Below, piece after piece: positions 15,405-30,103 of a stretch of 64,000 bases of DNA; the stretch's first letter is position 1; each line of letters starts with the position of its first letter. The notes under the pieces were generated by a model. The model was not told the origin of the DNA, ran no database searches, and worked only from the letters and a program-made list of their open reading frames with translations. A program made the position numbers and the translations under genes. This stretch comes from Thiohalorhabdus denitrificans (GTDB lineage: Bacteria > Pseudomonadota > Gammaproteobacteria > Thiohalorhabdales > Thiohalorhabdaceae), in assembly GCF_001399755.1 (NCBI RefSeq), contig NZ_LJCP01000011.1, positions 62,001-126,000 on the forward strand, given 5' to 3'.

Positions 15405-15582
15405 ACATCCCCCGCTGGTGCCGCTACGCCGCGTATTTGAACCCACGCTCAACAAGTGGGTGCCCCGTTAACGCTTCCGGAACCCGGCGTCCGGGCTCTC
15501 TTCCACGCCAAGTGAGGGCTCCCTGGGTTCAAAAGTGTTGGTTCAAGTTACGCTTCGGCTTTTGCGAACACCGCAGGGGATG
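15405..15582 (-). ncRNA. ssrS: 6S RNA
   Basis: The gap between zapA and fau holds about 175 nt that can fold as 6S RNA. The 5' end CCCCTGCGGTG pairs with the 3' end CACCAGCGGGG. The 5' strand has the typical GTGTTCGC, and the middle contains TTGAACCC and GAGCCC stretches around a large internal bubble. In the related E. coli locus 6S RNA sits in the same place between zapA and ygfA. A T7 run (15399-15405) ends the transcript just before the fau start. 6S RNA binds sigma-70 RNA polymerase in stationary phase. The ends are approximate. Confidence 0.85.
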
Positions 15583-27355: not shown

Positions 27356-27493
27356 CCTCTCCCACCCCCTTGCTTGGGCTGCATTGGACGCTGAAACGGA
27401 GAGAGGCCGCGAGTGCGGCCCGTAAGGATCAATGTATCCTACGGGACAGGCGGGAAGCTACCGAGGCGGACGCGCCGCGGCGGCCTTTGGACA

Positions 27494-27520
27494 TAAAAAA
27501 AGCCCTCCCGAAGGAGGGCT
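27494..27520 (-). terminator. rho-independent terminator of the sigma-54 mini-gene
   Basis: On the minus strand, AGCCCTCC (27520-27513), loop TTCG, and GGAGGGCT (27508-27501) are followed by a T run ending near 27495. It closes the transcription unit that begins near 27790 and insulates pgi. The 143 bases between the small ORF stop and this hairpin hold only a weak extra frame (a 14-codon ATG frame at 27614-27570) with no good ribosome site. Confidence 0.9.
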
Positions 27521-27663
27521 GTCCCCCACACCCCGGATCACGGGGATTCCCATGGAACCAGGTGCATTCTTAGGGGCCCTGGGGGTGGGCCCGCCGGCTG
27601 TGCTCCCCCCACATTTCCCGGCCCAGCTTGAAGTCGGTATCTATGCCCCGAGGGGGGGGCGGG

Positions 27664-27732
27664 CTACATGAGCTTGGGCAGACCCCAGGCCATGGCCACG
27701 AAGATCAGGAGAAAAAGCAGTCGCCCCGTCAT
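27664..27732 (-). CDS. 22-residue membrane peptide under sigma-54 control
   Basis: The frame starts MTGRLLFLLIF and ends GLPKLM: one Arg, about 15 hydrophobic residues, then a Lys, enough for one short membrane helix. AAGGAGG lies 6 bases before the ATG, one of the best ribosome sites in the window. The unit is complete by itself, with a sigma-54 promoter 69 bases upstream, a leader that can form two exclusive hairpins and a terminator 144 bases downstream. No known small protein is recognised. The chance that it is only a leader ORF for a regulatory RNA remains. Confidence 0.6.
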   Translation of the reverse strand: MTGRLLFLLIFVAMAWGLPKLM

Positions 27733-27800
27733 GGCAGGCCTCCTTAAGCGTTTGAGCTTCGGTCCCGATAACCGCCTGCGGAGCGGTTCACCCCCTATAT

Positions 27801-27816
27801 AGCAACCCCCGTGCCA
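27801..27816 (-). promoter_or_regulatory. sigma-54 (RpoN) promoter
   Basis: On the minus strand TGGCACGGGGGTTGCT matches the -24/-12 consensus TGGCACG-N4-TTGCW at every defined base, with exact GG-to-GC spacing. Transcription would start near 27790, giving a 58-base leader before the 22-residue ORF. Confidence 0.85.
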
Positions 27817-28280
27817 AAACAAAAAAACCATTAATTTCAAAAACATAAAAAAGGGCCTATAACTCAACCCTGCCAACGCCTCCAAAACGGGTCTTACCCT
27901 GTCCCCACTTGGCAACGCCCCTTCACCAGCACCCCTTTCTATACTCTGTTTTTAAAGGATTTTTTCTTTGTCGTTGGGCAACGACATCCGGGGGGTCCGT
28001 TGTACATTCGGGCCAACGGCACGGACCCGCTGGACGTACCGCCGCGCCCCTCCCCGACCTCCGCAGCCCGCCCAATCGGCCCGCAGCCCCCGCGGACAGG
28101 GGGTTGGGGGGTATCCCCCTTCCCGGATGCCCTCCCGCGGCAGACGGACCGTTCTTGTCTTCCTTGGAATATTAAAGTTTTCTTAATAACTTAATTTTTT
28201 CAGTGGTTTGAACTTATTTATTCCCTGGCGCCACTTTAACCTAAGTATAAACCTGGAAGGTTGTACGAGGAGGGAGCGCA
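27817..28280. other. AT-rich intergenic region with enhancer and remnant promoter
   Basis: This 464-base stretch is clearly poorer in GC than its surroundings at 27817-27960 and 28160-28260. It contains the 18-bp palindrome at 27969-27986. AAGTATAAACC near 28240-28255 could be a -10 element for the truncated peroxidase gene. No convincing further gene was seen. Confidence 0.5.
27969..27986. promoter_or_regulatory. enhancer-like palindrome upstream of the sigma-54 promoter
   Basis: TGTCGTTGGGCAACGACA is a perfect inverted repeat with 8-base arms and a 2-base centre. It lies about 155-185 bases upstream of the sigma-54 promoter, the usual distance for a bacterial enhancer-binding protein dimer acting by DNA looping. 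Confidence 0.55.
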
Positions 28281-28568
28281 ATGTGTCGCCTCATACCGAT
28301 GGTCCTGGGCGGTGCCCTGCTGCTGGCCGGACCATCTGCCTGGGCGCAGAATCCCGATCCCGGGGATCCCTCCCTCGGCCTGCCGCCGGTGCCGGTGCCC
28401 GAGGACAACCCGGTCACCGAAGCCAAGGTCGCACTCGGAGAACGCCTGTTCAACGAACAGCGCTTCAGCGGTGACGGTACCATCAGCTGCGCCAGCTGCC
28501 ACGAGCCGGACCGGGCCTTCACCGACGGCCTTGCCCTTGCCATGGGCAGAGACGGGCTGAAGGCCTAG
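28281..28568 (+). pseudogene. truncated diheme cytochrome c peroxidase (N-terminal remnant)
   Basis: A 95-codon frame with a signal peptide (MCRLIPMVLGGALLLAGPSAWA), then EDNPVTEAKVALGERLFNEQ and the first haem motif CASCH followed by FTDGLALAMGRDG. This equals the first quarter of a MauG/CcpA-type peroxidase, which should be about 340 residues with a second CxxCH. It stops at 28568 soon after haem 1. Its start has a good GGAGGG site, so it may still be expressed. The intact paralogue lies at 28913-30028 on the other strand. Confidence 0.8.
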
Positions 28569-28912: not shown

Positions 28913-30028
28913 TTAGTGGCCGCCGCCGTCCCCCTCGTATTCGTCCGCGGCGGTGGCCGGGACGATGCTCTCGCCAGACTTGGAGGGCAGGCGAGGCATG
29001 GTCATCTCCGGGAACTCCCCGGTGAGACCCTCGAGGAAGGCCACGATGTCGGCCACCTGCTGCTCGGTCAGGTCGCGGTTGAGCTGGGTCTTGGCCATCA
29101 CCCGTACCGCCTCGGGCAGGGTCTCCACCAGCCCGTTGTGGAAGTAGGGCGCGGTCAGGGCCACGTTGCGCAGGGTGGGCACCTTGTACATGTGGGCGTC
29201 CGCCTCATCACCGGTGGCCTTGGCCCGGCCCTTGTCGTCCGTCAGATGGTACTTCTCCACGTACTCGTTGTCGCTGAACGCGGGGAACTTCTGATAGACG
29301 CCCTCGCCCTTCTCCTGCTTCAGCTGGTTGCCGCTGAAGTTGGGCCCGCTGTGGCAGGAGGTGCAGCCCACCTCGTTGAAGGTCTTCATACCGCGGACCT
29401 GCTGCTCGGTGAGCGCGTCTGTGTCGCCCTGCACGTAGCGGTCGTAGGGGCTGTTGGGCGTGATCAGGGTGCGCTCGAAAGCGGCCACGGCCTTGGCGGC
29501 GTTCTCCACCGAGACGGGCTCTTCGTCGTCGGCGAAGGCCTCCTTGAACATATCGCGGTAGCCGGGGATGGACGCCACCCGCTCCAGGGCCACCTCCAGG
29601 GCCTCCACGCCCATCTCCACCTCGGCGAGCACCGGGCCCTTGGCCTGCTCCTCCAGGGTGGCGGCGCGGCCGTCCCAGAACTGAGAGGCATGGAAGGCGC
29701 TGTTCCAGACCGTGGGGGCGTTGCGCGGGCCGGTCTTGCCGTGCACGCCCATGGAGGTGGGCCGGCCGTCGTCACCGCCTTCCATCACGTTGTGGCAGGT
29801 GTTGCAGGAGACCGTGCCCGTCGCGGAATAGCGGGGATCGAAGAACAGCTTCTTGCCCAGCTCCACCTTCTCCTCGGTGGTGGGGTTGTCCTCCGGGGAG
29901 GGCGCCTCCTCGGGCAGGGTCTGCCAGTCGTAGGCCGCGGCGTTGCCGGCCATGAACAGCGCGCCGGCCGCCGCTAACAGGGAGCCTCCCCGCCGTCCCC
30001 AGGAATGCAACCGTTCAGTCGCCTTCAT
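28913..30028 (-). CDS. diheme cytochrome c peroxidase
   Basis: A 371-residue periplasmic enzyme reducing H2O2 with electrons from cytochrome c. A signal peptide spans about 1-33 (SLLAAAGALFMAGNAAAYD). Haem 1 motif CNTCH is at about 77 and haem 2 motif CTSCH at about 219. Conserved family patterns GKKLFFDPRYSATGTVSC, GVHGKTGPRNAPTVWN, FWDGRAATLEEQA and MYKVPTLRNVALTAPYFHNG are all present, including the region of the distal Met/His. Start ATG 30028 follows AAGGAGAGGGG. It stands alone between its own promoter and terminator. Electron donors in the same locus are not visible. Confidence 0.95.
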   Translation of the reverse strand: MKATERLHSWGRRGGSLLAAAGALFMAGNAAAYDWQTLPEEAPSPEDNPTTEEKVELGKKLFFDPRYSATGTVSCNTCHNVMEGGDDGRPTSMGVHGKTGPRNAPTVWNSAFHASQFWDGRAATLEEQAKGPVLAEVEMGVEALEVALERVASIPGYRDMFKEAFADDEEPVSVENAAKAVAAFERTLITPNSPYDRYVQGDTDALTEQQVRGMKTFNEVGCTSCHSGPNFSGNQLKQEKGEGVYQKFPAFSDNEYVEKYHLTDDKGRAKATGDEADAHMYKVPTLRNVALTAPYFHNGLVETLPEAVRVMAKTQLNRDLTEQQVADIVAFLEGLTGEFPEMTMPRLPSKSGESIVPATAADEYEGDGGGH

Positions 30029-30074
30029 ACCCCTCTCCTTGTCCAAGCGTTTAGCGATCAAGAATGTAAGCGTA

Positions 30075-30103
30075 TTATTATCATCCACGAAAAATTTAGA
30101 CAA
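30075..30103 (-). promoter_or_regulatory. promoter of the peroxidase gene
   Basis: On the minus strand TTGTCT (30103-30098) and TAATAA (30080-30075) are separated by 17 bases. The -10 region is AT-rich (GATGATAATAATACG). The predicted start near 30068 gives a leader of about 40 bases. Confidence 0.55.

Follow-up and report, generated by a model that had tools for sequence, protein, structure and literature searches.

The 64-kb stretch of Thiohalorhabdus denitrificans DNA analysed here (the window) carries on its minus strand a predicted monocistronic transcription unit of about 300 nt, hereafter the mini-gene, whose terminator lies ahead of pgi. The unit is headed by a sigma-54 (-24/-12) promoter, TGGCACGGGGGTTGCT (27801..27816), and the transcription start would fall at 27790, 12 nt past the C of the -12 element, judging from the geometry of such promoters. 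Counted from this expected start, the leader is 58 nt long and contains a hairpin, AACCGC...GCGGTT (27770..27788), in the individual fold of the window sequence. A Shine-Dalgarno sequence, AAGGAGG (27739..27745), stands 6 nt ahead of the ATG at 27732, which opens a 22-codon ORF (27664..27732 including the stop, TAG at 27666-27664). The encoded peptide, MTGRLLFLLIFVAMAWGLPKLM, is hydrophobic and probably has a single membrane span. Downstream, the 3'UTR is predicted to form two hairpins, one with a G-rich loop, GCCGG gaaa TGTG GGGGGAG CACA g CCGGC (27593..27622), obtained in isolated 3'UTR folds of the window and of a relative (G001, see below), and one with a C-rich loop, GGGCCC-ACCCCCA-GGGCCC (27574..27592). 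The unit closes with an intrinsic terminator, AGCCCTCCTTCGGGAGGGCT followed by seven T (27494..27520; 8-bp stem at 27520-27501). The original prediction had described the leader, AAGGAGG, the hydrophobic ORF and the terminator within about 300 nt, and all of them were found in place.

The neighbourhood holds other features. An ORF of 95 aa on the plus strand (28281-28568) matches the di-haem peroxidase domain PF03150 over its initial 46 positions only and ends early, and is possibly a truncated gene; a full MauG-like gene lies nearby on the minus strand (28913-30103). Between the terminator and pgi there is an imperfect inverted repeat, CCCGTAAGGAT-caatgt-ATCCTACGGG (27420-27446), which has a similar counterpart in G001 and is a possible pgi operator. 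Further away, a 6S RNA is encoded on the minus strand at 15405-15582 (Rfam RF00013, 77.5 bits).

The sigma-54 promoter

When the window was scanned with TGGCACGNNNNTTGCW allowing up to two mismatches, the only match was TGGCACGGGGGTTGCT, with none; the shuffled-sequence expectation at this tolerance is 8.0 matches. Genome-wide, the -24/-12 pattern family (up to one mismatch) occurred 39 times vs 31 for the reversed control. Since this enrichment is weak, the promoter string alone is no proof of function, and conservation is the real test of the mini-gene. RpoN is encoded in the window's genome.

Perfect promoter matches in this genome number five, two of them clearly ahead of sensible genes, one for a pilin (L079) and the other for a predicted exported protein of 219 aa (L076). 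Strong sigma-54 promoters were seen before the pilin gene and before the genes of two predicted exported proteins (L076 and L091). A second string identical to the mini-gene promoter (C9:156203) was considered as a copy of the mini-gene and rejected, the downstream ORF looking by eye like an excisionase-type DNA-binding protein. The mini-gene was found as a single copy.

Conservation of the mini-gene

The order to which the window belongs is represented in our collection by three genomes of one genus: that of the window (G000), G001 and G002. In all three the mini-gene was found ahead of pgi, in the same direction. The promoter is kept as TGGCACGTGGGTTGCC in G001 and as AGGCATGGGTCTTGCT in G002, with its spacing retained. 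The -24/-12 element claimed at the outset, whose GG and GC are correctly spaced and whose flanks are near consensus, is a perfect match in the window and is conserved in the three genomes. The G001 unit shares 88% DNA identity with that of the window. G002 is far more diverged: its identity to the window is highest in the terminator segment (0.89), followed by the ORF (0.65) and the 3'UTR (0.58), and falls to 0.32-0.47 in the flanks and leader. The best conserved stretch is the last 35 nt, including the terminator (35/35 identical in G001, 32/36 in G002); the gap of about 140 nt between terminator and pgi is poorly conserved (identity ~0.65 and ~0.47). The Shine-Dalgarno sequence reads AGGAGG in G001 and a weaker GGGGG in G002. 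Lack of conservation in close relatives had been named beforehand as a possible refutation; promoter, ORF and terminator are retained in both. That two relatives, one of them far diverged, retain the spacing of the promoter, the frame and length of the ORF, and the terminator places the mini-gene beyond chance.

Outside the three congeners, a peptide profile run against 369 genomes of the class gave nothing more than weak matches to part of the peptide (best E 0.002), and at none of them were stop, promoter and Shine-Dalgarno sequence in place. A degenerate-codon scan of 84,980 species, which may omit records very near the window's own, returned 23 matches, the unit being present solely at the known G002 locus.

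The 22-residue peptide

The hydrophobic core of MTGRLLFLLIFVAMAWGLPKLM comprises 14 residues, and core hydropathy ranges from 2.7 to 3.7 across the three genomes. With fewer than 50 residues and one hydrophobic span, the peptide falls among the small single-span membrane proteins, its membrane location being a prediction. The N-terminal MTGRLLF is invariant in the three genomes. The G002 peptide, MTGRLLFFLVLVVMILVVSRLM, is 55% identical to that of the window and has exactly 22 codons with no indel. A bias towards synonymous substitution had been proposed as a check. Over codons 1-7 it was seen in full, the five differences between the window and G002 being all at third positions and all synonymous; over the whole ORF, random-substitution tests with three sequences gave p=0.03-0.11, which is suggestive. 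The ORF is thus likely to be coding, with support from few sequences. A Pfam search with the peptide returned no family, and the only NCBIfam match, to PetM, was weak (E 0.02, below cut-off) and was discarded, in line with the earlier remark that no described family was recognised.

Features of the transcript

At the place of the window's leader hairpin, G002 has one of different sequence, GCCCTT...AAGGGGC; G001 retains the hairpin sequence of the window, which its full-length fold pairs otherwise. In the 3'UTR, the GTGGGGGG run of the G-rich hairpin is conserved in the three genomes, and both GGGCCC arms of the C-rich hairpin are invariant, leaving no substitutions from which covariation could be read. 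The RNAalifold consensus showed almost no covariation (0.26 kcal). Rfam matches to isrB, anti-hemB and STnc100 were weak, below cut-offs and mainly overlapping the terminator, and were rejected.

The small RNA glmY is a target of GlrR and sigma-54 in Escherichia coli (PMC6075780). A search with the GlmY model (RF00128) gave no match above cut-off, and the Rfam scans of the locus list neither GlmY nor GlmZ. RapZ, in contrast to GlmY, was found in each of the three genomes.

Upstream sites and the candidate activator

At 27969..27986 (minus strand), 152 bp upstream of the -24 element, lies a perfect 8+8 palindrome, TGTCGTTGCCCAACGACA (also given as TGTCGTTGGGCAACGACA), of the GlrR/QseF enhancer type (UAS1). 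The published QseF/GlrR site is TGTCN10GACA (PMC8745638) or TGTN12ACA (PMC6075780). The interval of the original prediction ended at the end of this palindrome, 27986, and its text did not mention it. A degenerate second site, CGTTGCCAAGTGGGGACA (UAS2, 27900..27917, minus strand), has 6/8 of the defined bases. The start-to-start spacing of the two is 69 bp, the same as in G001, where two perfect sites, TGTCGTTGCGGAGCGACA and TGTCGTTCATCGGGGACA (the UAS2 counterpart), occupy the same position; G002 has two 7-of-8 sites spaced 79 bp. A perfect IHF consensus was present between the two sites in G001 only, and no convincing IHF match was found between the window's enhancer and promoter.

The 2.87-Mb genome contains only 28 copies of TGTCN10GACA. 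About ten loci with other such sites were inspected in the three genomes; they were mostly intragenic or had no credible sigma-54 promoter, the exceptions being the unit L132 described below and a G002 candidate (L133; G002:C136, 873-982), in which TGTCCCGTCAGCGGGACA stands 76 bp ahead of TGGCACAAGGGTTGCT. Two genomes also share a conserved palindrome of this kind ahead of a hemA-like gene (G000:C6:187833, L136; G001:C1:189608, L137), where no good sigma-54 promoter was found.

Each of the three genomes has a gene for an enhancer-binding protein, and the C-terminal recognition stretch of this protein, AARLAKRNRTEFYKLL (GlrR-type HTH), is identical among them. The proteins of the window's genome and of G001 scored 666 bits (next model 438) and 668 bits, respectively, with the GlrR model NF011695, below the strict NCBIfam equivalog cut-off of 763 bits, which among 14 control genomes E. 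coli alone passes. In the window's genome, glrR comes after a gene for a histidine kinase and a lipoprotein-like ORF of 184 aa, that is, the qseE-qseG-qseF order, QseG being assigned by position and lipobox and having no family match. This gene order (qseEGF) is reported to be widespread in Pseudomonadota, including Gamma- and Betaproteobacteria and Acidithiobacillia (PMC12691602).

From motif, conservation and co-occurrence (see below), the activator of the mini-gene promoter is probably GlrR/QseF. The window's genome may also encode the PEP-CTERM regulator PrsR, named by eye. PrsR as the activator is weakened because three genes for predicted exported proteins that have sigma-54 promoters (L076, L077 and L091) have no TGTCN10GACA nearby. 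Some enhancer sites in other genomes precede exosortase-type genes.

GlrR-type units in Gammaproteobacteria

Across the 369 genomes, the enhancer followed by a sigma-54 promoter at 71-131 bp occurred 37 times vs 6 for the reversed pattern. GlrR, called present at E <= 1e-130 to the GlrR model, was found in 20 of the 32 genomes that have a unit and in 7 of the 44 that have none (Fisher p=3.6e-5), the comparison genomes having been taken in list order and not at random. In the remaining 12 of the 32 there was no GlrR match; some of these genomes are incomplete, and some hits are chance pattern matches inside genes. In nine genomes (G027, G109, G198, G204, G206, G209, G301, G311 and G344) no more than about 4 kb separates a unit from glrR.

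A search for tandem perfect sites spaced 62-72 bp left 22 loci once repeats and coding matches had been excluded; G261, G274 and a few other genomes have tandem short repeats that are unrelated. In the 22 loci the spacing is 65-69 bp (mode 66-67). The extended arms read TGTCGYY-N4-RRCGACA, a consensus that includes G001's own locus (2 of the 44 sites) and that UAS1 fits at every position. Pairs of such sites about 66 bp apart, with sigma-54 promoters, were observed before small genes at L174-L200 and L143-L168. Downstream there is in most cases one small gene, and many of these genes encode exported or membrane proteins; among them are EF-hand proteins that are exported, lysine/histidine-rich repeats, a BON-domain protein, some exosortase-associated-type GNAT acyltransferases and a 61-codon hydrophobic ORF. 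No paper linking GlrR to EF-hand proteins was found in the literature searched. Together, these units possibly represent a general GlrR regulon of Gammaproteobacteria, and the mini-gene resembles this wider set of GlrR-type single-gene units.

The window's genome contains a second unit of this type (L132; G000:C10:512.5-513.1 kb, minus strand), made of TGTCGCTGCAGGAAGACA, a 152-bp gap identical to the enhancer-promoter gap of the mini-gene, TGGCGCGCTCCTTGCA, a Shine-Dalgarno sequence and a hydrophobic ORF of 94 codons, MWSFLLPGPLARSESLRAFAVAGFSAFFLFAAVAMGG..., located between lexA-like and moaA-like genes (named by eye from sequence). When the 28 genomic sites were ranked with the tandem-site matrix, L132 came first and the window site third. 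This unit is a lead and not a test, because its proximity to a promoter with one mismatch is what drew attention to it.

Discussion

The elements of the mini-gene, their conservation, the enhancer match, the presence of GlrR and the class-wide co-occurrence of enhancer and promoter with GlrR lead us to favour, with fair confidence, an mRNA that is switched on by GlrR and sigma-54 and encodes a single-span membrane peptide. Its transcription and translation, the binding of GlrR, and the membrane insertion and action of the peptide are predictions from sequence. The envelope-sensing QseE-QseG-GlrR(QseF) system would switch the mini-gene on. Phosphorylated GlrR would bind TGTCN10GACA about 150-170 bp upstream and remodel the sigma-54 polymerase at -24/-12, and the short mRNA would be translated from its strong ribosome site into the 22-residue peptide. 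The peptide might then insert in the inner membrane and modulate a membrane partner or the membrane state, and the intrinsic terminator would stop the transcript before pgi. The original prediction of a dedicated conditional sigma-54 transcript left open whether it makes a tiny membrane protein, a regulatory RNA or both; the protein part is supported by the conserved promoter, frame, length and terminator and by the presence of RpoN, and a regulatory role of the RNA itself may also exist, with almost no covariation and with sub-threshold Rfam matches that cover mainly the terminator.

If the transcript acted mainly as a regulatory RNA and did the work of GlmY in this group, with the ORF secondary or the RNA dual in function, it would share its activator and sigma factor with glmY, would adjoin a hexose-phosphate gene and would find RapZ in all three genomes; its 3'UTR has alignable blocks, the predicted G-rich and C-rich loop hairpins and, in the terminator, the best conserved stretch. 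However, it has neither a GlmY family match above cut-off nor covariation support, and the preserved ORF frame, length and N-terminal sequence, together with the strong Shine-Dalgarno sequence in the window and G001, also count against it; we regard this alternative as unlikely. Slightly less credit still is given to a dual-function RNA replacing GlmY, whose 3' hairpins would act on RapZ or an mRNA and whose peptide would act at the membrane, both under GlrR. That the unit always lies immediately before a co-oriented pgi, and that a strict scan (which can miss promoters) found no sigma-70-like promoter between terminator and pgi, would suit a leader or attenuator in which peptide and terminator govern read-through into pgi. 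Such a role is improbable given a strong conserved terminator with no obvious antiterminator, the roughly 140 nt of poorly conserved sequence that follow it and a peptide devoid of regulatory codon runs.

In size and hydrophobicity the peptide also recalls the small membrane toxins Ibs, DinQ and TisB. For a type I toxin, however, the single copy found, a strict scan that detected no sigma-70-like antisense promoter, and a conserved regulated promoter, which belongs to a type that in other places drives the expression of EF-hand and similar exported proteins, make a poor case, and we consider this reading quite improbable. Motifs assembled by chance in non-coding DNA hardly deserve credence: strings like -24/-12 are common in these genomes, but enhancer, promoter, ORF and terminator are co-conserved in three of them, one far diverged.

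The GlrR/sigma-54-switched mRNA that we favour resembles E. coli glmY and rpoE P2 in having a sigma-54 promoter, upstream TGTCN10GACA (TGTN12ACA) GlrR sites and qseEGF in the genome, and glmY also in being a short stand-alone transcription unit. In contrast to both, it encodes a conserved 22-codon ORF, has no sequence or structure match to GlmY, is not beside qseE and has one good site in the window instead of three. It shares with the GlrR-type units L194, L192 and L175 the tandem TGTCGYY-N4-RRCGACA sites ~66 bp apart, the sigma-54 promoter and a single small gene, whereas the units elsewhere encode mainly exported proteins of 70-120 residues (EF-hand, repeats), BON-domain proteins and GNAT acyltransferases. 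With YohP (27 aa), induced by SDS+EDTA envelope damage (PMC12719787), and the small membrane toxin DinQ (PMC3567139), the peptide shares size class and a hydrophobic span; no sequence relationship was seen, and their regulation is different.

The GlrR targets that we found described in the literature, glmY and rpoE, are enteric. What is new here is the peptide and a view of GlrR targets outside enterics, and not a type of system. The 22-residue membrane peptide adds to a class of proteins missed by annotation, and the mini-gene hints at the targets of this switch in bacteria that lack its classical target GlmY. Furthermore, taken with L132 and with the tandem-site units of other Gammaproteobacteria, the mini-gene suggests that the GlrR system widely drives small envelope proteins, and the role of QseE/GlrR outside enterics becomes directly testable.
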